Shown piece by piece: positions 4,690 to 63,135 of a stretch of 64,000 bases of DNA. Within the stretch, counting starts at the first letter, position 1. Every line of letters begins with the position of its first letter. The stretch comes from Pycnopodia helianthoides (Eukaryota > Echinodermata > Asteroidea > Forcipulatida > Asteriidae). The stretch lies in NCBI GenBank assembly GCA_032158295.1, contig JASTWB010000045.1, positions 42,240 to 106,239 of the forward strand, read 5' to 3'. The position numbers and the translations under genes are program-made. Under the pieces are notes generated by a model that was not told where the DNA came from, made no database searches, and saw only the letters and a program-made list of their open reading frames with translations.

Positions 4690-5185
4690 TAAATTGTTGA
4701 TCAATTCAACTTAAAATGATTATTTAATTGTTGATTTGAAATTGATTATATTATGGTTTGAATGACAGAATGAAAAACAAACATCTTTTGGGACTGAATT
4801 CTAATTGAGAATTGACACATTGTGGTCGTTTCATGTCAATGCACTCATTGTACATGAACTTGCAGCATCTGTATCTTGACAAGACATATTAGATCTGTAC
4901 CATAAATATTGTTACAGCTCCAAAAAAAATAGAATTCTATGGCCTTGAGGGACCATATGTTAAGAAATATATTTAGGTTTGTGTTCAACCCCAAAACATA
5001 TTGCACGCTATTCACACCTAATTAAAATTCAAGAAGGATGGAGTAAGCAGGTGATTTTATAATCATAGGGACATTTAGGGTTTTAACAAAGGTCATGTAC
5101 AGGGTCAAGACAATGGACATTAAGTGTGTTAAATGTCATACAATTAACTCAATGTCTTAATTAATTAAGAATTTAGGCTGATTTG

Positions 5186-5191
5186 TTTATT
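5186..5191 (-). promoter_or_regulatory. Candidate polyadenylation signal of left TRIM-A
   Basis: An AATAAA on the minus strand about 130 bases past the stop codon of left TRIM-A. The same hexamer at the same distance is kept in the mirror copy (62656-62661). The cleavage site is not visible, so this is a plausible but unproven signal. Confidence 0.45.
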
Positions 5192-5320
5192 TTAACTGCT
5201 TTAGTGAACACAAAATACAACAATTTGCATAGTTTGGTGATTGAATTATATTAATTCATGTTGGTGGTCAGTTCAATCCATGAGATAGTATTTGACCAGT
5301 ATCATAATTATCAGATAACA

Positions 5321-7846
5321 TTACACCTTGTTATAAATCTTCACTGAGTTCCAGTCTGCCACTGCCAGCTTCTGCCCATCTGATGTCAATGAGATTCCAC
5401 GTGGGCGGAACAGACCCTGAGCAATACAGCTGAGAAATCTACCCTTAGTGTCATACTGATGAATATGACCAGTGTATGCGGACTCATTGCACACTGCAAT
5501 GTAGATAGCTGCACTGTCACAGCAAACACCTCTGCAGTATGTAACTTGCCTACCATCAATGGCTGGTTTAATGGTGAAGAGAGTTGCCCCGTTGTCATCA
5601 ACGATGTCTATTTTTTGTTGGCCCAAACCACTGACAATAACTCTATCCATGCTGTCAATGGCCAAGTACCAAGGTTGTGTCTCAACTGACACAGTGTCAA
5701 TGAGTGAACCATCACTGGAGCTGTGTTTAGTTATAACTGACCTCTTCACATCCCCCACAATGATTGTATCCTTCATGACTGCTACACTGCGGAGGCGTAT
5801 TGCTGTTTTGCCCACTTCACTATGAGGCACTGTGTAGAACTCCAATCCCTTTGTGCCATTCTTATAGTACATCTTGACAGAGTTGGTTCCATCTACAACC
5901 ACTAACTGATTCTGGAATGCAGCAACAGCCCGAGGGTCTGGAAAACAAATGAACAAATGGATACGACTCAATACTATCATCCTTCATTTGCAAATTACTT
6001 ACAACCTTTTGCATTTGTTCCTATGTTGTAAAAGCCATTTTTACTTTGCTCATAATTCACAGAGCACCTACATGTAACTACGACCTACAGTAGAACAATA
6101 ACATCACCCTGTTGATATTAGCAAGGTGACTACAATCAAGAGAAAGAGAAAACTGGTATTAGTTCATTCTTTTGAACTCTTATTTTCAGATTTTACCTAA
6201 ATCACATACATTGTTATTATTTAGTCGTTTAGTATTATAAACCTCTTTCGTGTTTGTTTTGATTCGAGGAATGTAAAAATCCTGAATGACAGCAGATAGA
6301 GTGGATTCAGTGATCATGCATGGATTAATGCAGCTCTAGCCTACAAGGTACAGTGGAATAGGAATAATCAATCATTTTCACGACTACATGTAAACCTTTC
6401 ATTGGTCTGATTTGTGAAAAACTACCTTTGAGAAAAATCTACTTTTTTATGGATTACCTTTTGACTGTCACCCTAATAACCAGTCATGAGTACTTTTTTT
6501 ACACTGTTTGAACTGAGATTTACAACAACATTAACACCTCTAAATAATGACTTTGTAAGGAACTTACTGTATGACAATTGGATAGTTCTCTTCTGGTGTC
6601 CCTTAGTGTCAAAGGTTACCACTCTTCTATTATTGCACTCTGCCACTGCCATCTCATTCCCAGGTACAGAGGCATCAATGTCCCAAGCCCCATTCAGTCC
6701 TTCAACACACTCCAAACCAAGCTCCCACCTTGGCTCTATCCTAATCAGCTTACCCAGGGTGATGTCACAAACCCCTGGATAGAAACTCAGAAAGGAAAGG
6801 GTAGAGTCTATCTTGGGTTGATTTTGATCTCTGAGTAAAGTCAAGTCCTTACTGATATTAGGATAGAGTGCAAGGAAGTCAAGAGCTGATGAATTGTTGC
6901 TGACATCTTTGGCAGTCTGCAGTGATTGCTGTATTTGATGTGAGTTTACACTCACTGTTTGCTCATATTCCTCTAATTTCTTGTTCTGATCTTTGTGGAT
7001 AGTTGTTATTTCATCCATGATGCGACTCTCTTGAGCTGTTACCTCAGCCCTGATCTCATCAGCTCTGTTCTTCACCTCTGCCATGGTTCTCTCAACTGCA
7101 ATGTCCAAGTTGTCTTTTATTGTTGAGACAGTTGCTTGAGATTGGTCAAGGTTCTTCAGGATTTCTTCAAGGGGAGTAATGAGTTGAGCCAATGACTGTT
7201 TATATGTGGATGAGGCTTGGTTGCAGTCAATATACTCATGTTGTGGATTACGGTGATCTATGAGAGTGCAATCTCTACAAATCATCACATCACATGTTGT
7301 ACAATAGAACCTCATCACTTCACCTTCATGAGTCTGGCATTCTGGTTGACGCTTTCGTTTTCTCGTTTTCATTGCAATCTTCCCATCACTAATGTCTTTC
7401 AAAGTAGCAACTGTGTGGCTTGACAATGCTGTAATTTTCTGGTGCATTTTGTAGCAATTTGCACAGATCATCATGGGGCAGTCACAACAGAAATGTGTTG
7501 CCTCATTTTCCTCCTTGCATAGTTTACAAATAAACTTGAAGTTTTGTGATGAGCTGACCTGCTCCAATTGATGTGCAAGACCAGTTAGATTAAAGTTAGT
7601 CTTCAGATCTTGAACACCCTCCCGAGGAAGTTGTGTCTCCTTTCGACACAGAGGACAAATAAGCATCTTAGCATCTTTGTAGTTGGTAGTCTTTTTTTTC
7701 AGCAAACAGTGTTCACAGAAGCTGTGAAGACAGTCCAGTAGTTTGGGTTCTGTGTATTGGTCAGTGCAAATACAGCACTTCAGATGATCCTGGATGATTT
7801 TCTCTAGAGCTGAAACCTTTACTGGGTTTGAAGATGCCATTTGTAT
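5321..7846 (-). CDS. TRIM-A left copy: RING / two B-box / coiled-coil / NHL-like protein, two coding exons, apparently intact
   Basis: Exon 1 runs 7846-6568 (ATG at 7840) and exon 2 runs 5937-5321. The intron starts GTAAGT, ends TTTCCAG and joins in phase, giving 629 residues. A ttatttccag acceptor just before the ATG implies an upstream 5' UTR exon that I could not locate. The RING ligands are C22, C25, C37, H39, C42, C45, C62 and C65. B-box 1 lies at about residues 106-146 and B-box 2 at about 166-205, followed by a Q/E/K-rich coiled coil to about 310. The C-terminal third has NHL-type beta-propeller repeats, mostly in exon 2. Proteins of this layout (TRIM2/3/56/71-like) are usually RING E3 ubiquitin ligases whose propeller binds protein or RNA; the substrate is unknown here. 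It is transcribed outward from the palindrome axis. The mirror copy at 60005-62526 is damaged. Confidence 0.85.
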
Positions 7847-8564
7847 CTGGAAATAAATACCAAAGAGTAAAATATTTCATTTATAAAAGGGCAAGCATTT
7901 AGTTCACAAAAATCACTTTCAGACTACATATTTTTAAACTAATTCATAATCATACTTTGAAATCCAAGTACTTGTATTGAGTGGTTGGAATCTCTACTTG
8001 GATTTTAAAGTGCTTGGGCATTGCATGCCTGTACTTGTACTCGATGTTCAAAGTATTTGTACTTCTTCGTGCTACTTGGTACCCGGCAACAAATCCCAAT
8101 TGCTTTAGTCTAATTATATTTCAAACATTTATTCAGGTCTAATAATTTTGGTTATCCATACACTGTATGCCATATGCTTTCTCAAGTCATGTAGAAAATA
8201 TCCACAGGCAACTTACTAGGGTTGAATTCCAATCCATGACCACCGGCATTCTAGAGCAGAACCACTAGAACACAGAGCATACCGAGTGATGAGAGGCTTG
8301 TTTGAATCCTGTAGTTAACAAACGCTTATCACACTGGTAAACACTAAAAAACTACTCATTAGAATGAACATTACATTGATGAAACACTCTCAAGTAAAGT
8401 ACACATTCATTCATGCATAGGTACAAAATGTTTATGTTTTTAGAGGTAGGAGTTATATTCTACATGTAGCTATGTGCAAGCAGACAATGCATATAGTTTA
8501 CTATACTTTAAATTTGTTTTTGAAAAGGTTTACATGAGCGTCCTCTACATTGACAAAATCTGCA
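7847..8564. other. Upstream flank of left TRIM-A
   Basis: AT-rich sequence that should contain the intron and promoter upstream of TRIM-A exon 1. I cannot place the 5' UTR exon or a promoter. It is mirrored at about 59290-60004. A patch near 7965-8085 repeats short tacttg/caagta motifs. Confidence 0.5.
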
Positions 8565-9947
8565 GAAATAATGTTGAGTTTCTAAATTCAAACAAGGAGT
8601 CCAGACAACACCCAGACATCGCCCTAACAATACACCATGACATGAGGCAAATGTAAACTGGAGATGAGGTTGAGTTTCTAAATTCAAACCAGGGAGTCTA
8701 CGAGACACACAGACCCCCCCCCCCCTCTGACCAACATCATGACATGAGGCACATCAAAACTGATGACGAGGTTGAGTTTCTAATTTCAAACCAGGGAGCC
8801 TACAAGACACCCAGGCACCCCTCTGACTAACATCATGACAAAACACAAATGTAAACTGAAGATGAGGTTGGGTTTCTAAATTCAAACCAGGGACCGTACA
8901 AGACGCCCAGACACCCCTCTGACTAACAGCATGACATGAGGCATATCTAAACGAAAGATGAGGTAAAGTTTCCAAATTCAAACCAGGGAGTTTACAAGAC
9001 ACCCAGAGACCCCTATGACTAACTTCATGACAAGAGGCACTGAAGGTGAAGTTGGGTTTCTATATTCAAACAGGGAGCCTACAAGACACCCTAACACCCC
9101 TCTGACTACCATCATGACAAAAGGCATATCCAAACTGAAGATGAAGTTGGGTTTCAAAATTCAAACAGGGATTCTACCAGACACCCAGGCACACTCTGGC
9201 CAACATCATGACATGGGGCACATGTAAGCTGAAATCGAGGTTGGGTTTCTAAATTCAAACCAGGGAGTCTAAAAGTCACCTACAATGTACACACCCTCTG
9301 TCTAACATCATGACATGAGGCAAATGTAAACTGAAGGTGAGGTTGGGATTCCTATTTCAAACCAGGGAACCTACAAGACACCAAGAGTAACGCCTATGAC
9401 TAACATCATGACATGAGGCATATCTAAACTGAAGATGAAGTTGGATTTATAAATTCAAACCAGGGAGTCTACAAGACACCAAGGACATTCCTATGACTAA
9501 CATAATGACATGAGGCACAAGTAAACTGAAGATGGGGTTGGGTTTCTAAATTCAAACCAGGGAGCCTACAAGTAACCCAGAGACCCCTCTGATTAACATC
9601 ATGACTAAAGCAAATGTAAACTGAAGATGAGGTTGGGTTTCTAAATTCAAACCAGGGAGCCTACAAGACACAAAGACATTCCTACGACTAACATCATGAC
9701 ATGAGATAAATTTATATTGAAGATGAGGTTGAGTTTCTAAATTCAAACGAGGGAGCCTACAAGACACCCAGACACCCCTCTGAATAACATTATGACTAGA
9801 GCAAATGTAAACTGAAGATGAGGTTGTCTTTCAAAATCCAAACCAGGGATTCTACAAGACACCAAGACATTCCTATGACTAACATAATGACATGAGGCAC
9901 ATGTAAACAGAAGATGACGTTGAGTTTCTTAATTCAAACATGGAGTC
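8565..9947. repeat. ~96 bp minisatellite, left outer array
   Basis: About 14 imperfect tandem copies of a unit near 96 bp. Recurring landmarks are gatgaggttgggtttctaaa, ttcaaaccagggag, tctacaagacaccc and catcatgacatgaggc. The open frames across it are by-products of the repeat. It is interrupted at 9948 by a TTAA element and resumes at 12093. It is mirrored at 57483-59290. Confidence 0.9.
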
Positions 9948-12092
9948 TTAACCCTTTCAGCCCCAAGTTCTTTTGACATAAACAACTGCTAGAGCCCACG
10001 TTCTTTGACCACTCAAGCGTGAACCACACTTCCTCACACAACAGGAAGCTAGTGTTCAAAGTTTGATTTTACAAACTGTACTATTTCCTTGAAGTTTTTA
10101 TTGAAAGGGCATAATGAGTAATAAAAATTGTCTTACTTAGTGGATTTCCTTTCATTTAATTCAAAAATTATTGGAATCAGCCAAAAAATGTTCAAGTTCT
10201 AGGTCTTTGTTTCCTCAGTGTGTTCTGAAAACCCAAACACTTTTTTGCACACAACTTAATGGCGCTCCATAGGTGTTTTGCATTTCGGATCTTTCTACCC
10301 TAATTTGAATCGATTGCAAAATAACAACCCTATTTTATTTTACTGTCGTTGGAAAGATCTTAACTTTTTCTTTCCAATGATTGTAAGCTTGGGTATGGAG
10401 GGTGAACATGGACAAAACTACAGCTTTTTAACAAATGACCTTTGTGCCCAGGCTTGAGTGCTTTGTTGTGTGTTATCTTGGGCGACTATAGTCGCCCTTG
10501 GGGCTGAAGCAGGGTAAAGTGCACAGTCGACTATAGTCGCCCTTGGGGTAGCCTTGATATCAAGGCTGTGTAGACAAGTACTCTAGCTAAACCCATAGAG
10601 CAAGGATACTAAAACCTCAGCCGCCCGAATGCAATACAACCCTAGTCCCCCGACTGACTCTAAAAAAAATAGCACAACGCACTCTCACCATGCACACACA
10701 CACACACCGCTATTCCATACACCGCTATCGCCCACAATCCTAGCCCGTGAGCCGTCAGGCTCACAGCCTTGATGATCTTGTAAACCGAGTTCTTATGTGT
10801 TTCATTGTTTTTCTTCGCAAATACGTGGAAAATGGGGGGGGGGGGTGAGTGGATATGCAAAGATTTATTTCATGAATAATACATCATTCCTAATAGCCAA
10901 TCAAACACCAGCGCGCCACTACGTTGAAAACAATCTCATTCGACCCTAGCGACGTGGACTGCTGATCGAAGCTCCACAATCAAAACCACTGTACATGTAC
11001 AAACGGACGCGTGTGTGTACATTTTTGTATGCACAGTGTTCACTATTTGAATTACAGTTGCTCTCCACTGCGGGCCGTCGAGACTGCTTGGACAAGTCCA
11101 TTTTATCAGAGGGTGTTGTTATCTTCAAATGTTGTAAATTCACAAAATCTTTACACCAGAAAACATTTGTAATTTTTTTTTTCGTTGCCAACTGCTTCAG
11201 TATTTTAACAATTTAATAAATAACATATATTTTAATGTAAACGACATGTATAACATATCTGTTTAAGATGTGACGTATGCTGCCTCAGAATTAAAATTAC
11301 CTGCAGAAAATGTTCCCGTCCGTCAACAGATATCGTTTGAACGCAAACTAAGCATCGGCAGAAACCATTCTCTCAAAAAACCCTTTTGAAAATCGTCAAA
11401 TATCTAGAGGATGTACAGATGGATTTTGTTTAAACTTTCAGGTATGAAAGATCTATTCCTAAGTATTACGTTAATGGAAAAAAAATCAGAGGATGAACAA
11501 TAATTTTTTTCATTATGTCGATATTTGTATATACGATATACACTGTTATGTTTTCAGTGCTGTTAAAGAGATAATTTTAACAGTATACATGGATTTCTTT
11601 TTGGTTTTTAATGGTCATCACCTCTTTTTAAAATGGAGTGTACCCAAACTGCGATCGCAAATGATTGCGCATTACCCCTTCCGCCCCCCCTGTGTATTAC
11701 TATTCATAATGTTTATTAAACATGACCACTTCCAATGGCCAATCAAGAGCCTTTTATTACAAGCAGAGCACACTCATTATCATAACCGCAAGACCCGCAA
11801 GTGTACAAGATCGTCAAGGCTGTGAGCCTGACGGCTCACGGGCTAGGATTGTGGGCGATAGCGGTGTGTGGAATAGCGGTGTGTGTGGGACTGTGGAAAC
11901 GAGCGTTTGTGTGCTTCCTTGGGTGAGAGCGTGGTGTGCTGTTTAAAGACAGTGGGGGGACCGGAACAGGAGTTGCATTGCATTCGGACATCGCATACGT
12001 GCGGCTGTGGTTAAGCACATTTTTAGCTTTATAGTAAGCAACCTATTACACAGCCTTGCAATCAAGGCTACCCTTGGGGCTGAAAGGGTTAA
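9948..12092. mobile_element. piggyBac-like TTAA element, left arm only
   Basis: The element spans 9952-12088 (2137 bp), flanked by TTAA on both sides (9948-9951 and 12089-12092). Its inverted ends are ccctttcagccccaag and cttggggctgaaaggg. The right arm carries the empty site, a single TTAA at 57917-57920 in otherwise matching minisatellite sequence. A TTAA target and CCY-type ends are typical of piggyBac. No transposase frame is seen. Inside, inverted arms at about 10548-10790 and 11812-12070 make it a foldback around a ~1 kb core. A second copy of the end motif near 10490-10515 suggests a smaller relative of about 570 bp lies nested at its left end. Confidence 0.85.
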
Positions 12093-12522
12093 ACAAACCC
12101 AGACAACCACGACTAACATCATGACATGAGGCTTATCTTAACTGAAGATGAAGCTGGGTTTCTAAATTCAAACCAAACTTACAAAAAACCAAGACAACCC
12201 TCTGTCTAAAATCATGACATGAGGCACATGTAAACTAAAGATGAACTTGGGTTTCCAAATTCAAAGCAGGGAGCCTACAAGACACCCAGGCACACTCTGA
12301 CTAACGTCATGACTTGAGGGAAATGTTAACTGAAGATAGGGTTGAGTTTAAAAGCTCAACCCAGAGAGTATACAAGACAACCAGGCACCCCTCTGAATAA
12401 ACATCTCAACATGAGGCAAATCAAAGCTGATGACGAGGTTGAGTTTCTAAATTCAAGCCAGGGAGTCTACAAGACACCCCTCTGACTAACTTCATAAGAT
12501 GAGGTACATGTAAACTGAAGAT
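12093..12522. repeat. ~96 bp minisatellite, continuation after the TTAA element
   Basis: Four to five more copies of the unit at 8565-9947. It is cut at 12523 by the foldback element. Confidence 0.85.
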
Positions 12523-14929
12523 GGTCATATCTTTGGATTCCGTGACCATCTTTTTGCTAGCTTTTTTTCTCGACGGATTTGACTTCAAGAATCATTTAAA
12601 AGGAAAATTAGCTTCTATGAACCTCTAAAATGTGATAGGAACTTTTTGATAGCGCATTATTCAAAATGGCCGACGGCGCCATCTTGAAAAACATAATTGA
12701 TAATATAGCTCTGGCACCAGATGACCTAGAAAGACAACAGAGATGTCATTTTCCACTATTTCTGGCATGACAAACCCACTCGAATGGTAATTGTAGAGTT
12801 TGGGGATCGTTCTGACCCCTTAATCCAAGATGGCTGCCGACGCCATCTTGAAAATTATGAAATGCAATAGCTCTGGCACCAGAAGAGCTATAAGTACAAG
12901 TAGTATGTCATTCTGCATATTATTTCTGGCATTACAAATCCACTGAAATGGTAATTGTAGATGTTGGGGATCATCCTGACCTCTAATCCAAGATGGTCGC
13001 CATCATCGCCATCTTAAAAATTATGAAATGTGATACCTCAGCACCAGAAAAGCTGTAAGTACAAATAGTGTGTAATTTTGCACTATTTCTTGCCTTACAG
13101 ATCCACTGAAATGGTAATTGTAGATGTTAGGGATCATCCTGACCTCTTCATCCAAGATGGCCGCCGTCACATACCATTTTGAGATATGGTGGACACAATG
13201 TTATAGGTTTGGGTAAATTTGTCTGCGTATGCCCAAACCAAACAGTCACTCCTTTAGTGTCCACCATATCTCAAAAAGGCTAACTGCCATCTTAAAAATT
13301 ATTCAATGTGATAGCTCGAAACCAGAAGATCTATGTACAAATAGTGTGTAATTTTGCACTATTTCTTGCGTTACAGATCCACTGAAATGGTAATTGTAGA
13401 TGTTAGGGATCATCCTGACCTCTTAATTCAAGATGGCTGCCGTCATTGCCATCTTGAAAATTATTATATGTGATAGCTATGGCACCAGATGACCCAAACT
13501 GAAAAAAGAGGTGTCAATTTCCACTATTTCTGGCATGAAAAATCTCCTGAAATGGTAATTGTAGATTTTGGGGATCATCCTGACCAATTAATCCAAGATG
13601 GTTGTCATCATCATCTTAACAAATATTGAAATGTGATATTTCTGGCACCAGAAGAGCTATAAGTACAAATAGTGTGTAATTTGGCACGATTTCTGGCATT
13701 ACAAATTAACTGGAAATGTAATTGAAGAGTTTTGGGATCATCCAGACCTCTCAATCCAAGATGACCTATATACAATTCTGGTTTACAATCGAATACTGGT
13801 TTACAATCGAGTATTATTATTACCAGTATAGAATCATCTATACCACCATTGCTGAACGAACCATTCACTTCCTTGAAAAGACCATTAATCACAGATGGTA
13901 AAATAATTCCACCATTTGAAATCCTCTTCAGTACAATAATTATCACCGGATACCCCAATGAAAACCATTTGCTACCAAGTGGTACCATTCTTTTGTTTTG
14001 ATGGGCTAAGAAAAACTAATAGGGTTACACTGTTTCTGGAATAACAAATCCTCTGAAATGGTAATTGTAGAGTTATGGGATTATCCTGAACTCTAAATAC
14101 AAGATGGCCGCGGTCATTGATTTCTTGAAATCTATGTCTTTGTCCAATGAATGAGGTATCGTCATCATCACCATCATCACCATCATCAACAACAGAAGCC
14201 TACTAATGCGGAGCACGGTCGCATTGTTCATCAAGACCAGCATTAAGTTTGGGCTACTTGCCCAAGATAAATACTCCAAAAATTGATTAAACATAACAAC
14301 GGTCAGGTCCTCTTGGATTAAGAGGTCAGGATGACCCCAAAAATCTACAATAATTATCCCAGTGGATTTTTCATGCTAGAAATAGTGGAAAATGACACCT
14401 CTTTTTTCCGTCCGGGCCATCTGGTGCCATAGCTATCACATTTCATAAATTTCAAGAATTTCAATTTTGATCTTCGATTAAGAGGTCAGGATGATCCTCG
14501 ACATCTACAATTACCATTCCCGTGGATTTGTAATGCCAGAAATAATGCAAAATGACATACTACTTGTACTTGTAGCTTTTCTGGTGCCAGACCTATCGCA
14601 TTTCATAATTTTCAAGATGGCGACAGTGGCCTTCTTGGATTTAGGGATCCCCAAACTCTACAATTACCACTCCAGTGGGTTTGTCATGCCAGAAATAATG
14701 GAAAATGACATCTCTGTTGTCTTTCTAGGTCATCTGGTGCCAGAGCTATTGCCATTTATGTTTTTCAAGATGGCGTCGGCGGCCATTTTGAATAATGCGC
14801 TATCAAAAAGTTCCTATCACATTTCAGAGGCTCATAGGAGCTAATTTTCCTTTTAAATGGTTCCTGAAGTCAAATCCATCAAGAAAAAAAAGAGCAAAAA
14901 AATGGTCAGGGAATCCAAAGATAATGACC
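12523..14929. mobile_element. Foldback element nested in the minisatellite, left copy
   Basis: About 2.4 kb whose two halves are inverted copies. The left end ggtcatatctttggattcc pairs with ggaatccaaagataatgacc at the right end, and pairing continues for roughly 1 kb. Each arm is built from tandem units of about 180 bp. Units contain a gene-poor landmark aatccaagatggccgcc...gccatcttgaaaattatgaaatg, then tctggcaccaga and atttctggcatnacaaatcc. No transposase frame. The mirrored copy at 54598-57482 has an extra internal block but lacks one unit. The architecture fits a Foldback-type element; the mobilising enzyme is unknown. Confidence 0.75.
13177..13276. repeat. ~100 bp hairpin MITE inside the foldback element
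   Basis: Perfect 20 bp inverted arms at 13177-13196 and 13257-13276 read as ttttgagatatggtggacac on opposite strands. An inner gtttggg/cccaaac stem lies between them. The right arm lacks the whole ~270 bp foldback unit that carries it, so absence there may reflect unit loss rather than a recent insertion. Confidence 0.65.
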
Positions 14930-15935
14930 GTACTAATTTTCTAAATTCAAACCAAGCCTACATGTGTACAAGTCACCCAGACACCCCTCCAACTTACATC
15001 ATCACAAAAGGCAAATGTAAACTGAAGATGAGGTTGAGATTCAAAACTCAAACCAGGAAATCTACAAGACACCCAGACATCCCTCCGACTAACATCATGA
15101 CATGAGGCACATGTAAACTGAAGATGAGGTTGAGTTTAAACCAGGGAGCCTACAAGACACCAAGAAACCCGTATGACTAACACCAGGACATGAGGCATAT
15201 GTAAACTAAAGATGAGGTTGATTTTCTAAATTCAAACCAAACGTACAAGACACCCAGACACCCCTCCGACTAACATCATGACAAAAGGCATATCTAAACT
15301 AAAGATAAGTTTGGTTTCTTAAATCAAACCAGGGAGTCTACAAGACCCCAAGGCACACTCTGACCAACGTCATGACTTGAGGCAAATGTTAACTGAAGAT
15401 GAGGTTGAGTTTCAAAACTCAAACCAAGAAGTCTATTAGACACCCAGGCACCCCTCTGAATAAACATCTCACCAAGAGGCAAACGTAAATTGAAGATTAG
15501 TTAGGGTTTCTAAATTCAAACAGGGAGTCTACAAGACACCCACACAACCCTATGACTAACATCATGTCATGGGGCACATGTAAACTAAAGTTGAGTTAGG
15601 GTTTCTAAATTCAAACCAGGGAGTCTACAAGACACCCACACAACCCTATGACTAACATCATGTCATGGGGCACATGTAAACTAAAGTTGAGTTAGGGTTG
15701 CTAAATTCAAACCAGGGAGTCTACAAGACACCCACACACCCCTCTGACTAACATCATAACATGAGGCATATGTTTACTGAAGATGAGGTAGAGTTTCTAA
15801 ATTCAAACCAGGGAGTCTACAAGACACCCAGACACCCCTCTGACCAACATCATGACATGAGGATTATCTTAACCGAATATGAAGTTAGGTTTCTAAATTC
15901 AAACCAAACTAACATGTACAAGACACCAAGACAAC
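14930..15935. repeat. ~96 bp minisatellite, left inner array
   Basis: About ten more copies of the 96 bp unit beyond the foldback element. The mirror is 50450-51425. The Penelope-like insertion in the right arm hit the equivalent of 14939-14947, which is intact here. Confidence 0.85.
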
Positions 15936-17461: not shown

Positions 17462-17610
17462 CTCAGCGCTATTAACCACTGTCAGCTGTCCTAAATATGT
17501 CTGCAGTACTGTCAGAATTGTCCCTTGTTTTATTGAACACGAAAAGAAGTCAAATTTCTTTCTGAATTCACAACAAAGAATTCTACACGTAACACCAGAG
17601 CTGGTCCCTC
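17462..17610 (-). CDS. Exon U3 of an unidentified gene, left copy
   Basis: This 149 bp segment is bounded on the minus strand by an acceptor (ccattttag) and a donor (gctgag|gtgagt). It is open for its whole length in one frame and encodes about 49 residues containing VTCRILCCEFRKKFDFFSC and then a leucine-rich stretch ending QLTVVNSAE. It needs one incoming base, which matches the outgoing phase of exon U1 at 22512-22680. The mirror copy (48689-48836) has a one-base deletion near its 3' end. I do not recognise the protein family. Confidence 0.5.
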
Positions 17611-17909
17611 CTAAAATGGCGCTGGGCACAAAATGTTACAAAACATTTACCAAGGTTGATTTCCTCCTGGAGTCACGCAGCAGGTACATGTACATGAATA
17701 CACCATGGCTGACTGATACAGGTAGGTACACTATACAAAGAATTCATTCAACCAAGTAGTGAATACTGAACTTGCGTGTCAAGCCACCATTGTTGTTTGT
17801 CTGTACTGTAAACACACATGTAGCTACATGTACCATTGTTGTCTGTCTGTCTGGTTGTATTGTATGGTGAATATTGAACTTGATATCAACTTTCAGTTAA
17901 GCAAGTTAC

Positions 17910-51425: not shown

Positions 51426-51440
51426 AATTTAGAATTTTTT

Positions 51441-51922
51441 TGTGGATAAGGCGCATAAAGACCATTCAACCCCATGGTTTGAACATCCAAGAAGGAAATG
51501 ACTAATAACCCTTTGTCTTTGCCTTCTCCCTTTTCCCCCACAGATATCCATATTTTTAGTCTGCCCTATTAACTAATTATTTACTTTTCTTCCAACCTTC
51601 CATTTTGTCCTTTGTGTTTCCAACTTCTTGTGGTCTAGCCATCCCCTTCCCTCCAACCCCCCCCCTTTGTCTTCATAATTCCTGCTTACCCCCTGCTTTT
51701 TCTGAATGCTTCTTGCTTTTCTCTCTCCACTCACTCTATTCATGTTTTTCCACTTGACTGCTTTTGTCCCCCTTGTATGCATGTTATGTGTGTTGTCTTG
51801 TCATTTAGCCTTCGAGAAAGACTCTGCTAGGGTCGAAACGTCAGGCCAATAACTAATTTTTTGCATTTATACTACAGGTCCTTTTGGTTGGTAAGCAGTT
51901 TGCAACAGCTAATTCTTATTTC
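51441..51922 (+). repeat. Upstream pseudo-LTR of the Penelope-like element
   Basis: A direct repeat of 54335-54578. It starts at gtggataaggcgcataaag and ends at cagctaattcttatttc. This copy has about 240 extra bases (about 51590-51829) absent from the downstream copy, and it contains the hammerhead-like motif. Its first part encodes the same C-terminal endonuclease residues as the downstream repeat, as expected if it is the tail of a tandem copy. Confidence 0.85.
51807..51847 (+). ncRNA. Degenerate hammerhead-ribozyme-like motif
   Basis: In order: a stem strand gcct (51808-51811), stem II gactc (51820-51824) with loop tgcta and gggtc (51830-51834), the invariant GAAA (51835-51838), then C and GTC (51840-51842), and aggc (51843-51846), which pairs with gcct. 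This is the layout of the minimal type I hammerheads found in Penelope pseudo-LTRs, with cleavage expected after GTC. The CUGANGA core is not matched (tcgagaaa-like sequence occupies its place), so activity is doubtful. Confidence 0.5.
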
Positions 51923-52129
51923 TCATTTATATCATCTCTGTTGCAGCATCCCTTTGGTGATCCTCCTTACCTCCCTTGTTCTTTGTCATATTTTGTCTTG
52001 TTTGCTACAGGTTGTTTTTCAGTGTACATTTCCCATTTTGTTATAACCTTGTTTTCTCCCCCAGAGTATTTCTGACTTTGTTTATGTACAATTAACTCCA
52101 TAGTTTTTATCCACAGCTGTCTTTCATGT

Positions 52130-54331
52130 TTGTTTTTCTCTTTGACCATGTCTAACCAAAGATGTGTTCGCTTGTTTCAGGAACTTAGGAAACTTAAAGA
52201 GAAAGCACTGCGTTATTCGTATCATCGAGATAATTACAGGTTCTACACACTAACCCGTTTCATTCCCACAGGTTTACAGGTGAATTTTGACCCAGCCCTT
52301 GGGTCTCTGTCCACCCCACTTCGCACACAGTGGAACCACACACTCCATAGCACTTAGCTTAGTCTCATCCGTATTCTAACAGAACACTGTGAACTTTGTC
52401 TCAACAGCTTTAACCAAGATATATCCTGTCTTGAAACAGAACTTAGATCCAGCTGCTCACTTGCCTGTTTTGAGCAATTCACCAGTGAGATCGGTGCTGG
52501 TTTAACTAAACTTGAATCTGTTCTAATTTCTAGGAGAAATGGCAAGATTGGCCGCCTTCTGTCGAAACAGAAACATTACAGACAGAGACGATTCAAGCGC
52601 AACACAGCCCCTGAGGCTGAGCAGTCAGTCCCTCAATCCACAGTCATTAATCTCTCATCATCTACCCTTTCAGGTGCAGAACACAGCCTGCTCTCCAAGG
52701 GACTCAACTTCTGCCCCACTCCCCCCACAGTGAATCAGGTTGAGCTCAGTCAGGACCTCACTGACTACTACCGCAGAATTCGCCTCCGTGAATTCTTCCT
52801 TGACTCACCACCTATGGATCCTGAGCCATTTTACTGCAAGAGTAAATGGGTACCACCTAAGAACCGTGTGCCATCCCTTGAGACTTACATACAGGTTGTT
52901 AGTTCACAAATTAATCCCAGTGATCATTCCACCCACAGGACTCATGACAACCTCCCTAGAGAAGAACGTGAGGCCCTTAAGACTCTACGAGCAAGGAAGG
53001 ACATTATCGTCAAGCCAGCTGACAAGGGCTCTGCTGTTGTTGTCATGGGTCGTCAGCAATACATCGATGAAGCCATGAGACAGCTCAACAACCAAACTAA
53101 CTATAAACCCCTTGACATCGATCCAACAGGCACATTTTCAAAGGAGATTCAACAAACACTGGATGAGATGCATGACCGTGACCACCTCTCAAAGAAAGCT
53201 CACAATTTTCTCTCCCCGGTAGACTGTAGAACAGCAAGATTTTACCTTCTTCCCAAGGTACACAAGCCAGAAAACCCAGGGAGACCCATCATATCTGGCA
53301 ATGTTTCCCCACTGAGAATATATCTCTTTTTGTTGACAGTTTTCTCAAGCCGCTTATGCCACAGGTTCCATCATATATTCATGACACTCCAGATTTTCTT
53401 CGTAAAATCTCAGGTATTCAGAAGCAGGTCCCCAACACAGCTATCATCGGTACTTTTGATGTGTCCTCTTTGTACGCCAACATCCCCCAAGATGAAGGCA
53501 TTGCTGCCTGCTCCTCAGCCCTGTCTAAGAGTGGTCACGTGTCACCGCCAATTTCTGACATTGTATTCCTCATGCAACATGTTCTAACGAAAAAACAACT
53601 TTTCGTTCTTAGGTAAGAATTTCCTACAGGTACATGGCACTGCAATGGGTACACGTATGGCACCTTCAATGGCCTGCCTTTTCATGAGTCAACTTGAACA
53701 GCGCATGTTGTCGTCGGCCCCTTGCCGCCCCTGGGTCTGGTGGCGCTATATCGATAACATCTTTTTCATCTGGACTAGTGATGAAGCAAGCCTCATATCA
53801 TTCATTAACCACATTAATTCCTTCCACAGGACCATCAAATTCACGAATGAATACTCGACCAAGGACACCCATTTTCTGGATGTCAAAGTTATAAAGACGG
53901 AAGACGGCTTAACCACAGATCTCTTTGTTAAACCCACAGATAAACATCAATACCTCCACTCCACCAGCTGTCACCCCCGACACTGCAAAACCAGCATAGC
54001 CTACAGTCAGGCCCTCAGACTCCGTCGAATCTGTTCTAATGATTCTGATTTTTTCCACCACTCGCAGGAACTTAAGAAACACCTTGTTTCCAGGGGTCAT
54101 AGCTCCCTAGCAGTCCATCGAGCGATTCAGAAAGTCAAGGCTCGTTCTAGGGAGTCTGTACTCTCCAAAGGACCCAAGCAACAACGGAGTTCCAAGGGGA
54201 AAGTTCCCACAAGCTGGATACACCTGTAGGACACCACTTCAATCTTCCTAACCACTCCATTTTTGACATGAATTAACAGGGCATTGAGGCACTAGGTAAC
54301 TCCAGAGAGACTGTCCGTCTGAGTAGGGAGA
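52130..54331 (+). pseudogene. Penelope-like reverse transcriptase, broken, with most of the GIY-YIG endonuclease missing
   Basis: An N-terminal frame begins near 52148 (MSNQRCVRLFQEL) and hits an in-frame stop near 52356. The main frame then shows IVKPADKGSAVVVMGRQQY, ARFYLLPKVHKPENPGRPI and, after a frameshift near 53320, GTFDVSSLYANIP. A further frameshift near 53600 precedes GTAMGTRMAPSMACLFM and RYIDNIFFIW. The usual catalytic pair in this last motif is YIDD, so the second aspartate is an asparagine here. After about 54229 only the very end of the GIY-YIG endonuclease remains (GHHFNLPNHS ... WIRRIKTIQPHGLN). The endonuclease core is absent, implying an internal deletion. The copy cannot be autonomous. 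Confidence 0.88.
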
Positions 54332-54334
54332 AAT

Positions 54335-54578
54335 TGTGGATAAGGCGCATAAAGACCATTCAACCCCATGGTTTGAACATCCAAGAAGGAAATGACTTAA
54401 ACCCTTTGTCTTTGCCTTCTCCCTTTTCCCCCACAGATATCCATATTTTTAGTCTGCCCTATTAACTAATTATTTACTTTTCTAGGGTCGAAACGTCAGG
54501 CCAATAACTAATTTTTTGCATTTATACTACAGGTCCTTTTGGTTGGTAAGCAGTTTGCAACAGCTAATTCTTATTTCC
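54335..54578 (+). repeat. Downstream pseudo-LTR of the Penelope-like element
   Basis: Second copy of 51441-51922 with an internal gap of about 240 bp at tttacttttct|agggtcgaaac. Only the 3' half of the hammerhead-like motif (gggtcGAAAcgtcaggcc) remains. Confidence 0.85.
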
Positions 54579-54597
54579 CAATTTAGAAAATTAGTAC

Positions 54598-57482
54598 GGT
54601 CATTATCTTTGGATTCCCTGACCATTTTTTTGCTCTCTTTTTTTCTTGATGGATTTGACTTCAGGAACCATTTAAAAGGAAAATTAGCTCCTATGAGCCT
54701 CTGCAATGTGATAGGAACTTTTTTATAGCGCATTATTCAAAATGGCCGCCGACGCCATCTTGAAAAACATAAATGGCAATAGCTCTGGCACCAGATGACC
54801 TAGAAAGACAACAGAGATGTCATTTTCCATTATTTCTGGCATGACAAACCCACTGGAATGGTAATTGTAGAGTTTGGGGATCGTTCTGACCCCTTAATCC
54901 AAGATGGCCACCGTCGCCATCTTGAAAATTATGAAATGCGATAGGTCTGGCACCAGAAAAGCTACAAGTACAAGTAGTATGTCATTTTGCATTATTTCTG
55001 GCATTACAAATCCACGGAAATGGTAATTGTAGATGTCGAGGATCGTCCAGACCTCTTAATCGAAGATGGCCGCCGTAATCGCACTCTTGAAATTTATGAA
55101 ATGTGATAGCTATGGCACCAGATGACCCGGACGGAAAAAAGGTGTCATTTTCCACTATTTCTAGCATGAAAAATCCACTGGAATAATTATTGTAGATTTT
55201 TGGGGTCATCCTGACCTCTTAATCCAAGAGGACCTGACTGTTGTTATGTTCAAAATTATGAAATGTGATATCTCTGGCACCAGAAAAGCTATAAGAACAA
55301 ATAGGGTGTAATTTTGCAGTATTTGTAGCATTATAAATCCACTGGAATGATTATTGTACACTTTATGTATTGTCCTAACCTCTAAATCCAAGATGGCCGC
55401 CGTAACCATCTTGTAAGTTATGAAATGTGATAGGTCTATACCAATTAAAATACCATTATCATTGCCATTGTTATTACCATTTTATGTTATTAAATGGTGT
55501 TATCGGACATCTACCATTTGTGATTATGTGTGGTTTCTTAATGGTAACTTGAATGGTTTTCTATACATTTTAATTACCATTCAACCAATGGTGTTATCGG
55601 ACATGAATGGTAAATGAACTAGTGATATCTATGGTATACCATTGATCTTATCAATTATATACCATTCAAAAACATTCCATTGGCAAAATCAATGATAGTA
55701 TACCATTCAGTACCCATTGGTGATACCATTTAATACCATTAATCATATCAATGGTATACCCTTCACTGACACTGTTCTCCAAAGGTAGGCCTATACCATA
55801 AAAAAACATTGATAATATCAATGAACATTGTACCATTTAGCACCATGGAAACAGTTAGTGGTGTACCATTACCTTACACTGTATTACTGCGGCTATATAA
55901 GTTTAGTTTGCAAGGATGGTTTCAGGTAGTTTCACAGTAGGCTGAATGTTATCACAAGTTATAAATCGATTCAATAAAGACATTTTAAAACATGGTCACA
56001 CACAAAAATGGTACAACATCACAGGTTTAATCAATTTTTTGAGTATTTATTTTGGGCAAGTAGCCCAAACTTAATGCTGGTCTTGATGAACAATGCGACC
56101 GTGCTCCGCATTAGTAGGCTTCTGTTGTTGATGATGGTGATGATGACGATACCTCATTCATTGGACAAAGACATAGATTTCAAGAAATCAATGACCGCGG
56201 CCATCTTGTATTTAGAGGTCAGGATAATCCCATAACTCTACAATTACCATTTCAGAGGATTTGTTATTCCAGAAACAGTGTAAACCCTATTAGTTTTTCT
56301 TAGCCCATAAAAACAAAAGAATGGTACCACTTGGTAGCAAATGGTTTTCATTGGGGTATCCGATGGTAATTATTGTACTGAAGAGGATTTCAAATGGTGG
56401 AATTATTTTACCATCTGTGATTAATGGTCTTTTCAAGGAAGTGAATGGTTCGTTCGGCAATGGTGGTATAGATGATTCTATACTGGTAATAATAATACTC
56501 GATTGTAAACCAGTATTCGATTGTAAACCAGAATTGTATATAGGTCATCTTGGATTGAGAGGTCTGGATGATCCCCAAACTCTTCAATTACATTTCCAGT
56601 TAATTTGTAATGCCAGAAATTGTGCAAAATTACACACTATTTGTACTTATATCTCTTCTGGTGCCAGAAATTTGTTAAGATGATGATGACAGCCATCTTG
56701 GATTAATTGGTCAGGATGATCCCCAAAATCTACAATTACCATCCAGGGGATTTTTCATGCCAGAAATAGTGGAAATTGACACCTCTTTTTTCATTCTGGG
56801 TCATCTGGTGCCATAGCTATCACGTATAATAATTTTCAAGATGGCAATGACTGCAGCCATCTTGGATTAAGAGGTCAGGATGATCCCTAACATCTACAAT
56901 TACCATTTCAGTGGATCTGTAAGGCAAGAAATAGTGCAAAATTACACACTATTTGTACTTACAGCTTTTCTGGTGCTGAGGTATCACATTTTATAATTTT
57001 TAAGATGGCGATGATGGCGACCATGAGGTCAGGACGATCCCCAACATCTACAATTACCATTTCAGTGGATTTGTAATGGCAGAAATAATATGCAGAATGA
57101 CATACTACTTGTACTTATAGCTCTTCTGGTGCCAGAGCTATTGCATTTCATAATTTTCAAGATGGCGACGGTGGCCATCTTGGATTAAGGGGTCAGAACG
57201 ATCCCCAAACTCTACAATTACCATTCCAGTGGGTTTGTCATGCCAGAAATAATGGAAAATGACATCTCTGTTGTCTTCCTAGGTCATCTGGTGCCAGAGC
57301 TATTACCAATTTTTTTTTCAAGATGGCGTCGTTGGCCATTTTGAATAATGCGCTATAAAAAAGTTCCTATCACATTTTAGAGGTTCATAGAAGCTAATTT
57401 TCCTTTTAAATGATTCTTGAAGTCAAATCCGTCAAGAAAAAAAGCTAGCAAAAAAATGGTCACGGAATCCAAAGATATGACC
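54598..57482. mobile_element. Foldback element, right copy
   Basis: Mirror of 12523-14929, about 2.9 kb. It has the same ggtcat...tctttgg ends and ~180 bp units carrying aagatggccgcc/gccatcttg. Compared with the left it has an additional internal block at about 55250-56027, and it lacks the unit holding the 100 bp hairpin. Confidence 0.75.
55430..56010. repeat. taccatt/aatggta-rich block inside the right foldback element
   Basis: The block repeats ccatt and aatggt on both strands at irregular spacing (for example taccatt, atggtatacca, accattca). It is not a strict tandem array and has no open frame. Related sequence at 13790-13990 and 56310-56480 shows it is part of the element's centre. Absent from the left copy, probably by deletion. 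Confidence 0.6.
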
Positions 57483-59290
57483 ATCTTCAGTTTACATGTA
57501 CCTCATCTTATGATGTTAGTCAGAGGGGTGTCTTGTAGACTCTCTGGCTTGAATTTAGAAACTCAACCTCGTCATCAGTTTTGATTTGCCTCATGTTGAG
57601 ATGTATATTCAGAGGGGTGCCTGGTTGTCTTGTATACTCTCTGGGTTGAGCTTTTAAACTCAACCCTATCTTCAGTTAACATTTCCCTCAAGTCATGACG
57701 TTGGTCAGAGTGTGCCTGGGTATCTTGTAGGCTCCCTGCTTTGAATTTGGAAACCCAAGTTCATCTTTAGTTTACATGTGCCTCATGTCATTGTCATGAT
57801 TTTAGACAGAGGGTTGTCTTGGTGTCTTGTAAGTTTGGTTTGAATTTAGAAACCGGCTTCATCTCAGTTAAGATAAGCCTCATGTCATGATGTTAGTCAT
57901 GGTTGTCTGGGTTTCTTTAAGACTCCATGTTTGAATTAAGAAACTCAACGTCATCTTCTGTTTACATGTGCCTCATGTCATTATGTTAGTCATAGGAATG
58001 TCTTGGTGTCTTGTAGAATCCCTGGTTTGGATTTTGAAAGACAACCTCATCTCCAGTTTACATTTGCTCTAGTCATAATGTTATTCAGAGGGGTGTCTTG
58101 GTGTCTGGTAGACTCTGGTTTGAATTTAGAAACCCAACCTCATCTTCAATATAAATTATCTCATGTCATGATGTTAGTCGTAGGAATGTCTTTGTGTCTT
58201 GTAGGCTCCCTGGTTTGAATTTAGAAACCCAACCTCATCTTCAGTTTACATTTGCTTTAGTCATGATGTTAATCAGAGGGGTCTCTGGGTTACTTGTAGG
58301 CTCCCTGGTTTGAATTTAGAAACCCAACCCCATCTTCAGTTACTTGTGCCTCATGTCATTATGTTAGTCATAGGAATGTCCTTGGTGTCTTGTAGACTCC
58401 CTGGTTTGAATTTATAAATCCAACTTCATCTTCAGTTTAGATATGCCTCATGTCATGATGTTAGTCATAGGCGTTACTCTTGGTGTCTTGTAGGTTCCCT
58501 GGTTTGAAATAGGAATCCCAACCTCACCTTCAGTTTACATTTGCCTCATGTCATGATGTTAGAAAGAGGGTGTGTACATTGTAGGTGACTTTTAGACTCC
58601 CTGGTTTGAATTTAGAAACCCAACCTCAATTTCAGCTTACATGTGCCCCATGTCATGATGTTGGCCAGAGTGTGCCTGGGTGTCTGGTAGAATCCCTGTT
58701 TGAATTTTGAAACCCAACTTCATTTTCTGTTTGGATATGCCTCTTGTCATGATGGTAGTCCGAGGGGTGTTAGGGTGTCTTGTAGGCTCCCTGTTTAAAT
58801 ATAGAAACCAAACTTCACCTTCAGTGCCTCTTGTCATGAAGTTAGTCATAGGGGTCTCTGGGTGTCTTGTAAACTCCCTGGTTTGAATTTGGAAACTTTA
58901 CCTCATCTTCCATTGAGATATGCCTCATGTCATGCTGTTAGTTAGAGGGGTGTCTGGGCGTCTTGTACGGTCCCTGGTTTGAATTTAGAAACCCAACCTC
59001 ATCTTCAGTTTACATTTGTGTTTTGTCATGATGTTAGTCAGAGGGGTGCCTGGGTGTCTTGTAGGCTCCCTGGTTTGAAATTAGAAACTCAACCTCGTCA
59101 TCAGTTTTGATGTGCCTCATGTCATGATGTTGGTCAGAGGGGGGGGGGTCTGTGTGTCTTGTAGACTCCTGGTTTGAATTTAGAAACTCAACCTCATCTC
59201 CAGTTTACATTTGCCTCATGTCATGGTGTATTGTTAGGGCGATGTCTGGGTGTTGTCTGGACTCCTTGTTTGAACTTAGAAACTCAACAT
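57483..59290. repeat. ~96 bp minisatellite, right outer array, with an empty TTAA site
   Basis: Mirror of 8565-9947 plus 12093-12522, without interruption. The TTAA at 57917-57920 is the unoccupied counterpart of the left-arm piggyBac-like insertion. Confidence 0.9.
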
Positions 59291-60004
59291 TATTTTTGCA
59301 GATTTTGTCAATGAAGAGGACGCTCATGTAAACCTTTTCAAAAACAAATTTAAAGTATAGTAAACTATATGCATTGTCTGCTTGCACATAGCTACATGTA
59401 GAATATAACTCCTCCTCTAAAAACATAAACATTTTTTACCTAGGATAAATAATTGTGTATTTACTTGAGAGTGTTTCATCAATGTAATGTTAATTCTAAT
59501 GAGTAGTTTTTTAGTGTTTACCAGTGTGATAAGCGTTGTTTCATTCAAACAAGCCTCTCATCACTCGGTATGCTCTGTGTTCTAGTGGTTCTGCTCTAGA
59601 ATGCCGGTGGTCATAGGATTGGAATTCAACCCTAGTAAGTTGCCTGTGGATATTTTCTACATGACTTGAGAAAGCATTTGGCATACAGTGTATGGATAAC
59701 CAAAATTATTATACCTAAATAAATGTTTGAAATATAATTAGACTAAAGCAATTGGGATTTGTTGCCTGGTACCAAGTAGCACAAAGAAGTACAAATACTT
59801 TGAACATCAAGTACAAGTACAGGCATGCAATGCCCAAGCACTTTAAAATCCAAGTAGAGATTCCAACCACTCAAGACAAGTACTTGGATTTCAAAGTATG
59901 ATTATGAATTAGTTTTAAAATATGTAGTCTGAAAGTGATTTTTGTGAACTAAATGCTTGCCCTTTTTTAAATGAAATATTTTACTCTTTGGTATTTATTT
60001 CCAG
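59291..60004. other. Upstream flank of right TRIM-A
   Basis: Mirror of 7847-8564. It presumably holds the 5' UTR intron and promoter of TRIM-A, which I cannot delimit. Confidence 0.45.
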
Positions 60005-62526
60005 ATACAAATGGCATCTTCAAACCCAGTAAAGGTTTCAGCTCTAGAGAAAATCATCCAGGATCATCTGAAGTGCTGTATTTGCACTGACCAATACACA
60101 GAACCCAAACTACTGGACTGTCTTCACAGCTTCTGTGAACACTGTTTGCTGAAAAAAAAGACTACCAACTACAAAATGCTAAGATGCTTATTTGTCCTCT
60201 GTGTCGAAAGGAGACACAACTTCCTCGGGAGGGTGTTCAAGATCTGAAGACTAACTTTAATCTAACTGGTCTTGCACATCAATTGGAGCAGGTCAGCTCA
60301 TCACAAAACTTCAAGTTTATTTGTAAACTATGCAAGGAGGAAAATGAGGCAACACATTTCTGTTGTGACTGCCCCATGATGATCTGTGCAAATTGCAATG
60401 AAATGCACCAGAAAATTACAGCATTGTCAAGCCACACAGTTGCTACTTTGAAAGACATTAGTGATGGGAAGATTGCAATGAAAACGAGAAAACGAAAGCG
60501 TCAACCAGAATGCCAGACTCATGAAGGTGAAGTGATGAGGTTCTATTGTACAACATGTGATGTGATGATTTGTAGAGATTGCACTGTCATAGATCACCGT
60601 AATCCACAACATGAGTATATTGACTGCAACCAAGCCTCATCCACATATAAACAGTCATTGGCTCAACTCATTACTCCCCTTGAAGAAATCCTGAAGAACC
60701 TTGACCAATCTCAAGCAACTGTCTCAACAATAAAAGACAACTTAGACATTGCAGTTGAGAGAACCATGGCAGAGGTGAAGAACAGAGCTGATGAGATCAG
60801 GGCTGAGGTAACAGCTCAAGAGAGTCGCATCATGGATGAAATAACAACTATCCACAAAGATCAGAACAAGAAATTAGAGGAATATGAGCAAACAGTGAGT
60901 GTAAACTCACATCAAATACAGCAATCACTGCAGACTGCCAAAGATGTCAGCAACAATTCATCAGCTCTTGACTTCCTTGCACTCTATCCTAATATCAGTA
61001 AGGACTTGACTTTACTCAGAGATCAAAATCAACCCAAGATAGACTCTACCCTTTCCTTTCTGAGTTTCTATCCAGGGGTTTGTGACATCACCCTGGGTAA
61101 GCTGATTAGGATAGAGCCAAGGTGGGAGCTTGGTTTGGATTGTGTTGATGGACTGAATGGGGCTTGTGACATTGATGCCTCTGTACCTGGGAATGAGATG
61201 GCAGTGGCAGAGTGCAATAATAGAAGAGTGGTAACCTTTGACACTAAGGGACACCAGAAGAGAACTATCCAATTGTCATACAGTAAGTTCCTTACAAAGT
61301 CATTATTTAGAGGTGTTAATGTTGTTGTAAATCTCAGTTCAAACAGTGTAAAAAAAGTACTCGTGACTGGTTATTAGGGTGACAGTCAAAGGTAATCCAT
61401 AAAAAAGTAGATTTTTCTCAAAGGTAGTTTTTCACAAATCAGACCAATGAAAGGTTTACATGTAGTCGTGAAAATGATTGATTATTCCTATTTCACTGTA
61501 CCTTGTAGGCTAGAGCTGCATTAATCCATGCATGATCACTGAATCCACTCTATCTGCTGTCATTCAGGATTTTTACATTCCTCTAATCAAAACAAACACG
61601 AAAGAGGTTTATAATACTAAACGACTAAATAATAACAATGTATGTGATTTAGGTAAAACCTGAAAATAAGAGTTCAAAAGAATGAACTAATACCAGTTTT
61701 CTCTTTCTCTTGATTGTATACTATCACCTTGCTAATATCAACAGGGTGATGTTATTGTTCTACTGTAGGTCGTAGTTACACGTAGGTGCTCTGTAAATTA
61801 TGAGCAAAGTAAAAATGGCTTTTACAACATAGGAACAATTGCAAAAGGTTGTAAGTAATTTGCAAATGAAGGATGATAGTATTGAGTCCTATCCATTTGT
61901 TCATTTGTTTTCCAGACCCTCGGGCTGTTGCTGCATTCCAGAATCAGTTAGTGGTTGTAGATGGAACCAACTCTGTCAAGATGTACTATAAGAATGGCAC
62001 AAAGGAATTGGAGTTTTACACAGTGCCTCATAGTGAAGTGGGCAAAACAGCAATACGCCTCCGCAGTGTAGCAGTCATAAAGGATACAATCATTGTGGGG
62101 GATGTGGAGAGGTCAGTTATAACTAAACACAGCTCCAGTGATGGTTCACTCATTGACATTGTGTCAGTTGAGACACAACCTTGGTATTTGGCCATTGACA
62201 GCATGGATAGAGTTATTGTCAGTGGTTTGGGCCAACAAAAAATAGACATCGTTGATGACAACGGGGCAACCCTCTTCACCATTAAACCAGCATTGATGGA
62301 CAGCAAGTTACATACTGCACAGGTGTTTGCTGTGACAGTGCAGCTATCTACATTGCAGTGTGCAATGAGTCCGCATAGTCATATTCATCAGTATGACACT
62401 AAGGGTAGATTTCTCAGCTGTATTGCTCAGGGTCTGTTCCGCCCACGTGGAATCTCATTGACATCAGATGGGCAGAAGCTGGCAGTGACAGACTGGAACT
62501 CAGTGAAGATTTATAACAAGGTGTAA
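60005..62526 (+). pseudogene. TRIM-A right copy: RING / two B-box / coiled-coil / NHL-like, frameshifted
   Basis: Exon 1 is 60005-61282 (ATG 60011) and exon 2 is 61916-62526, with the same GTAAGT/TTTCCAG splice sites as the left copy. One base is missing near 60172-60176 (ctacaaaatgc against ctacaaagatgc), which breaks the RING between its sixth and seventh ligands. A second long frame from 60184 carries the rest. In exon 2 one base is lost near 62289 and five near 62373-62376; together they are in frame, so about 28 residues are replaced and the ending is restored. Other differences include W-to-C and E-to-D in the propeller start. It could encode an N-terminally truncated protein lacking most of the RING, but is probably a decaying copy or contains sequencing errors. 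Confidence 0.75.
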
Positions 62527-62655
62527 TGTTGTCTGATAATTATGATACTGGTCAAATACTATCTCATGGATTGAACTGACCACCAGCATGAATTAATATA
62601 ATTCAATCACAAACTATGCAAACTGTTGTATTATTTTGTTCACTCAATCAGTTAA

Positions 62656-62661
62656 AATAAA
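62656..62661 (+). promoter_or_regulatory. Candidate polyadenylation signal of right TRIM-A
   Basis: AATAAA about 130 bases after the stop codon, conserved with 5186-5191 in the left arm. Confidence 0.45.
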
Positions 62662-63135
62662 CAAATCAGCCTAAATTCTTAATTAGTTAAGACATTGAGT
62701 TAATTGTATGACATTTAACACACTTAATGTCCATTGTCTTGACCCTGTACATGACCTTTGTTAAAACCCTACATGGCCCTTTGATTATAAAATCACCTGC
62801 TTACTCCATCCTTCTTGAATTTTAAATAGGTGTGAATACCGTGCAATATGTTTTGGGGTTGAACACAAACCTAAACATATTTCTGAACATATGGGCCCCC
62901 AAGACCCTAGAATACTCTTTTTTTAAGCTGTAACAATAATTATGGTACAGATCTAATACTGTCTTGTCAAGATACAGATGCTGCAAGTTCATGTACAATG
63001 AGTACATTGACATGAAATGACCACAATGTGTAAATTCTCAATTAGAATCCAATCACAAAAGATGTGTGTTTATCATTCTGTCATTCATACAATAATCTAA
63101 TCCCTTTAAGTTTAGTTGATCAACAATTTCTCTAA
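62662..63135. other. Outer edge of the right arm
   Basis: Noncoding 3' flank of TRIM-A. It pairs with about 4690-5185, with divergence increasing toward 63135, where matching ends near gttgatcaac. Confidence 0.5.

Follow-up and report, generated by a model that had tools for sequence, protein, structure and literature searches.

Is the giant inverted repeat at the end of one contig of the Pycnopodia helianthoides assembly a structure of the chromosome, or was it made during assembly? A first-pass annotation had left the choice between a true inverted duplication and two haplotypes misjoined by an assembler. The second is favoured by our analysis, on the basis of the one-sidedness of related core sequences elsewhere in the genome, a step in substitutions close to the turn, and the poor sequence at the end of the contig. 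Judging from the sequence, we believe, with a probability of roughly three in four, that the 58 kb palindrome is an assembly fold-back joining two alleles, and that it is probably no real chromosome structure.

We analysed a window of 64,000 bases, the right-hand 64 kb of contig C45 (bases 42240-106239 of 106,239). Window position 64000 is the end of the contig. The genome assembly has 742 contigs (479,350,823 bases), and the contig numbering, together with what the available parts of two reports say of relatives (PMC9270726, PMC10015122), points to a chromosome number of 22. Protein matches numbered 101, and all for which a source name was given were from sea stars (Asterias, Patiria, Acanthaster). 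The best identities were 70-72%, to Asterias rubens and A. amurensis, as would suit an animal akin to Asterias and probably distinct from both species. A search for COX1 had no match in this assembly, whereas 8 of 14 controls gave one.

The giant inverted repeat was present in the deposited sequence. The two arms (Table 1) matched each other at 94-98% BLAST identity, and the limits that had been annotated for the core were exact. A true palindrome is expected to have long inverted arms with a short spacer between them, and these are in the sequence. The annotated right limit, at 63.1 kb, is not a demonstrated arm end: matching pieces persisted to the contig end. In four long blocks of the arms there were 452 substitutions in 22,914 aligned columns (1.97%) and 100 gap events, the 77-base minisatellite at about 38.6-38.9 kb being counted in two of the four blocks.

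Table 1. Features of the 64,000-base window (window positions) and contigs carrying the array.
Feature	Position	Strand	Description
Left flank	1..4743		Native extension of the left arm; recurs in other array contigs as pieces of at least 1 kb at 86-95%
Left arm	4744..33137	-	Reverse complement of the right arm; array order is arm, then reverse-complement core
Second TRIM-NHL gene, left arm	5321..7876	-	Frames 6473-7876 and 5321-5983
2,137-base element	9952..12088		Left arm only; inverted ends of 16 bases; flanked by TTAA; empty site in the right arm
77-base minisatellite	27532..28301	+	Left arm, 10 copies; right-arm partner 38640-38948, 4 copies
Left-arm TRIM-NHL open frame	31638..33194	+	RING, B-box, NHL; truncated at 33137; remaining codons are core in the wrong sense
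Single new junction	33137..33138		Left-arm TRIM-NHL frame abuts the core's distal end (inverted orientation)
Core	33138..33796	+	659 bases; elsewhere ordinary sequence (TRIM-NHL 3' end and downstream) adjoining one arm
Right-arm TRIM-NHL copy	33443..35224	-	NHL end included; one frame break near the 5' end
Right arm	33797..64000	+	Aligns well to the left arm up to 63102, then poor-quality sequence
Inner zone	33797..36546	+	7 substitutions and 11 small indels in 2,748 columns; left-arm partner about 30380-33137
Reverse-transcriptase element, 3,145 bases	51435..54579	+	Right arm only; 9-base target duplication; empty site in the left arm
Second TRIM-NHL gene, right arm	60000..62526	+	Frame shifts relative to the left-arm frames
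Contig-end stretch	63103..64000		Poor-quality sequence; homopolymer load highest of 118 windows of C45
Array contigs			C23, C29, C44, C45, C51, C58, C63, C67, C77, C96, C138, C212 and others; C10 (end), C1 (start), C13, C14

The outer parts of the two arms came from different DNA molecules. The annotation had named clean transposon insertions, minisatellite copy number and scattered substitutions as differences between the arms, and all three were found: one private element per arm with an empty site in the other, 10 versus 4 copies of the 77-base repeat, and the 1.97% of substituted columns. The private insertions and the roughly 2% of outer substitutions rule out a single molecule read twice over the whole length. 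For the outer 26 kb the annotation was right to exclude a single molecule read twice; the innermost 2.75 kb, with hardly any substitutions, could be a single molecule folded back. Shared minisatellites do not explain the match of the arms, as the long blocks traverse genes and other sequence.

We take the element private to the right arm to be Penelope-like and the one private to the left arm to be of piggyBac type. Each arm has two blocks of one 96-base minisatellite family, of differing copy number (8573-9939, 14967-15906, 50454-51406 and 57482-59288). An ARAGORN call of tRNA-Thr at 51274-51347 is probably false, because it sits within a 96-base minisatellite. A search for RNA genes gave no Rfam match above the gathering score.

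The arms carry TRIM-NHL genes, and one of them is cut by the junction between the left arm and the core. The frame that reaches the junction had Pfam matches above the cut-off for RING, B-box and NHL, placing it in the TRIM-NHL family. Its sea star homologues are named tripartite motif-containing protein (70-71%), and a PDB sequence search with it yielded nothing beyond the TRIM, NHL and beta-propeller relatives to be expected. The cut adds a short foreign tail, to 33194. The TRIM-NHL genes of the right arm carry frame breaks that are absent from the left arm. In the copy next to the core the break is a single-base difference at about 35097; for the outer gene, left frames served as the reference, a comparison that favours the left arm. 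A literature search for papers treating TRIM-NHL expansion in echinoderms and starfish together found none.

In the other copies scored, the core was joined to a single arm. A genome search with positions 33000-33900 gave 88 matches. With 40 of 119 candidates scored, at least 39 places outside C45 carried the core, 27 nearly full length and 12 partial. (Nearly full-length copies, counted by hand, start at or before query base 176 and end at or after base 884, with identities of 73-87%.) In every one of the 39 scored copies, the end of the left arm (query 1-138) lay on the strand opposite the core and adjoined it; among these scored copies, C45 alone had that end on the core's own strand as well. 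When loci L002-L008 were read with 1.5 kb on each side, all seven had a single copy of the arm and none past the core. The core, annotated as the centre of a palindrome, is therefore present here as described and is not a palindrome spacer elsewhere, because at least 39 other scored places join it to one arm. A recurrent palindrome centre is ruled out, as no second arm lay beyond the core in any copy read with its flanks. The lack of an inverted second arm at the other scored cores, with one arm at 7 of 7 flanked loci, favours a fold-back.

Beyond the core, five of loci L002-L008 had a common sequence, which we call X. In a hand count, at least 23 of the 39 core copies had a match to X no more than about 2.5 kb beyond the core's far side (40 of 592 X candidates scored). 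Copies of X in L003, L005 and L006 were 95-98.5% identical pairwise (98.5% over 959 bases for L005-L006, 97.8% over 1,000 for L003-L005), and the adjoining core and arm differed by 4.4-5.1% (substitutions), which hints that array units are homogenised in patches.

The usual state of this sequence is a mostly head-to-tail TRIM-NHL array, of which the C45 region is one unit. In it the core occurs at least 40 times (12 partial copies included), on many small contigs and several of chromosome size. Within small contigs the copies had one orientation: six in C23 (320,703 bases, with nearly full-length cores 48-85 kb apart), two in C29 and two in C63. The chromosome-size contigs C13 and C14 had copies of the core probe in both orientations, about 1 Mb or more apart. 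With the probe 61500-64000, orientation in C14 flipped from + in the copy at 9367 to - in those that follow, over about 11-62 kb, possibly a real or false inversion inside the array. Among the matches listed, an inverted pair joined at a core was found in C45 only, and the best other matches of at least 1 kb had 92% identity for probe 44200-47200 and 90% for probe 61500-64000, with shorter pieces higher. Two stretches of other contigs, C106:19001-24000 and C240:9251-14250 (L034 and L035), were colinear and 96.3% identical over 4,323 columns, and are probably unpurged alleles of one unit.

Only one junction in the palindrome is abnormal. In the other copies the arm runs into the reverse complement of the core and there is no arm at the core's far side, indicating that the join at 33137|33138 is the one new junction. 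It was absent from those copies, which had the normal neighbour in its place, as a fold-back at this point would predict. Microhomology at the junction was at most two bases (AG, from visual inspection of the alignment). Contig C44 begins within X (C44:1-1344, L040), about 0.2 kb short of the expected core, and among the matches listed it was the only copy of X to meet a contig end in this way. C44 might conceivably be the true neighbour of the left arm; chance is possible too, as contig breaks are common in the array.

Substitutions between the arms all but disappeared next to the turn. There were 7 in the 2,748 inner columns (0.25%) and 445 in the remaining 20,166 (2.2%), and the change was a step, from 0.25% to 3-4% at position 36547 (8 and 9 substitutions per 250). 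The inner block was the lowest of 85 contiguous blocks (7 substitutions; 15 in the next lowest), and 100,000 random draws of 11 bins never reached so low a count, the block ranking being the fairer measure because random draws ignore autocorrelation. Patches of similarity are not confined to the turn: another stretch of few substitutions lies at about 45.2-47.2 kb. Arms of one age, or arms converted throughout, as expected of a true palindrome, would not differ by 0.25% in one part and 2.2% in the rest.

A constrained gene does not explain the inner identity, because paralogues diverge normally there. Compared with its paralogue in C58, the innermost 1,489 columns had 143 differences (9.6%) and two outer segments had 549 in 7,797 columns (7.0%). 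In the same innermost columns, private substitutions numbered none on the left, none on the right and one three-way, where the outer rate predicts about 29. In the core and inner arm, the 21 pairs of seven other copies differed by 2.8-7.6% (substitutions), and the two C45 arms by 0.13% over 1,582 columns. Near-zero inner substitutions where paralogues diverge normally favour a fold-back: one fold-back molecule at the turn, with a second allele outward, predicts such a step, and a duplication of a single age does not, unless conversion hit the centre.

Small indels did not follow the substitutions. The inner 2,748 columns contained 11 of them and the remaining 20,166 contained 89, so that near-identity at the turn followed by divergence was found for substitutions and not for small indels. 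The absence of an indel step counts against the fold-back reading. Ten of the 11 inner indels were single bases, and eight of these ten were missing from the right arm. We infer that the small indels are mostly consensus error, evenly spread.

The right arm ended in poor sequence at the end of the contig. In the last 898 bases of C45, 15.8% of the bases were in runs of at least five (median of the 118 windows, 3.7%; next highest, 12.9%). Pieces of this stretch matched the left flank in the same order at 67-76%, and also other array contigs at 69-88%, some on the opposite strand. The contig thus stops inside the right arm, in poor sequence that still matches the left flank, and there is no unique right flank; a true palindrome is expected to have unique, non-palindromic sequence beyond both arm ends, and here the right arm reaches the contig end. 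The left flank was colinear with contig C58, and the best other long match of probe 1-3000 among those listed in a genome search was 95%, in contig C29. Compared with C58 over the outer 7,797 columns, the right arm had 96 private substitutions and the left 55; small indels polarised in the same way leaned only slightly to the right (14 versus 10). The poor ending of the right arm, with its additional private substitutions and frame breaks, favours a fold-back, and the excess of changes could also be real decay.

Based on these results, we propose how the palindrome may have arisen. The real locus would be one array unit whose two alleles, or two very recent copies, are set apart by some 2% divergence and by transposon insertions. 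During library preparation the tip of a strand may have snapped onto itself, leaving a loop of 659 bases, and the resulting fold-back read would connect allele A with the complement of itself. Assembly of the reversed leg would then have gone on with reads of allele B until coverage ended, at the end of the contig. In the real locus the left arm would continue into the reverse complement of the core and then into X. Fold-back reads are described as a library artefact that makes up about 0.55-0.6% of ONT genomic reads (PMC12870357, in the part available).

The divergence of the arms and the length of the loop bear on this proposal in both directions. The arms resemble presumed allelic pairs (C106/C240, 96.3% identity; L002-L004, 2.8% substitutions; allelism presumed in both), which would favour the joining of alleles. 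Heterozygosity in Asterias amurensis is given as 0.96% in the accessible part of one report (PMC11090083), and an arm divergence about twice that value counts against an allelic reading. PacBio HiFi data are described as having virtually no fold-backs (PMC12870357, same part), which would also count against a fold-back if the reads here were of that type. That source calls fold-back reads with the turn within 200 bases; the 659-base loop lies outside this distance, a point against the proposal, though the distance is a default of the tool and no physical limit. In a true palindrome, the inner substitutions could also have been removed by gene conversion, and this too counts against the fold-back reading.

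The same anatomy might come from a true inverted duplication that folded back in vivo and whose inner 2.75 kb was recently cleared by arm-to-arm conversion, which we consider unlikely. By this route a broken end of the array would have been resected, snapped back with little homology around the 659-base loop, filled in and replicated, and the arms would later have aged, acquiring 2% substitutions and transposon insertions. Inverted arms, a single-copy spacer and near-zero homology at the junction are the anatomy of human fold-back duplications, as described in the available part of that work (PMC3907307), and array copies lie near the ends of chromosome-size contigs (about 83 kb from the end of C10, and at 2 kb in C1). 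With probe 44200-47200, moreover, the arms were 99% identical, and other matches of at least 1 kb reached at most 92% (95% in shorter pieces). However, arms made from one chromatid should share one age, and the step at 36547 then needs an additional conversion at the junction; the contig also ends inside an arm in poor sequence, and no breakpoint was seen on the far side. We are a little more doubtful still of the joint claim that C45 holds a genuine giant palindrome, its centre homogenised by conversion and its outer arms diverging, and that this is a natural stage between a head-to-tail array and a palindrome.

An assembly join might also have united two very recent tandem duplicates of one haplotype instead of two alleles. 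The region is a repetitive array in which the nearly full-length cores of C23 lie 48-85 kb apart, and the three close copies of X (L003, L005 and L006) cannot all be alleles of one locus, both of which speak for such duplicates. Yet those three loci differ by 4.4-5.1% (substitutions) over the core and inner arm, and only one of 21 pairs, L002-L004 at 2.8%, approaches the 2% of the arms, so we judge this origin quite improbable.

Read literally, C45 suggests an extreme palindrome together with a head-to-head pair of TRIM genes, the NHL domain of one being truncated. Once it is treated as a probable fold-back, spurious inverted duplications, spurious gene copies and a spurious gene fusion do not enter gene-family counts, and the test used here, in which substitutions vanish only beside the turn where paralogues nevertheless diverge, is applicable to other assemblies. 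A literature search on palindrome misassembly found nothing on this point. Were the structure real, it would be a large fold-back within a repetitive gene array.

The C45 structure shares features with three known systems, of which we compared what is described in the parts of the sources available. Palindromes of sex chromosomes (PMC8981503, PMC3723533) likewise have long inverted arms, a short spacer and possibly a conversion zone. Their arms are kept at >99% or >99.9% identity by gene conversion; those of C45, in contrast, are about 98% identical (substitutions) on average and near-identical only centrally, with undefined arm ends. With human fold-back inverted duplications that have a disomic spacer (PMC3907307), C45 shares inverted arms, a short single-copy spacer and little junction homology. 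Microhomology of 2-8 bp was reported at 13 human junctions, and the 21 sequenced spacers ranged from 766 to 70,466 bp (median 3,428), so that the 659-base spacer of C45 is slightly below the shortest. C45 also differs from these duplications in having no demonstrated terminal deletion or dosage change, and in a divergence that is stepped, not uniform. The third system is the fold-back read artefact (PMC12870357), which, like C45, turns onto its own complement and has near-perfect identity beside the turn. Unlike such reads, C45 has a loop of 659 bases in an assembled structure of 58 kb, and its outer arms are from different molecules.
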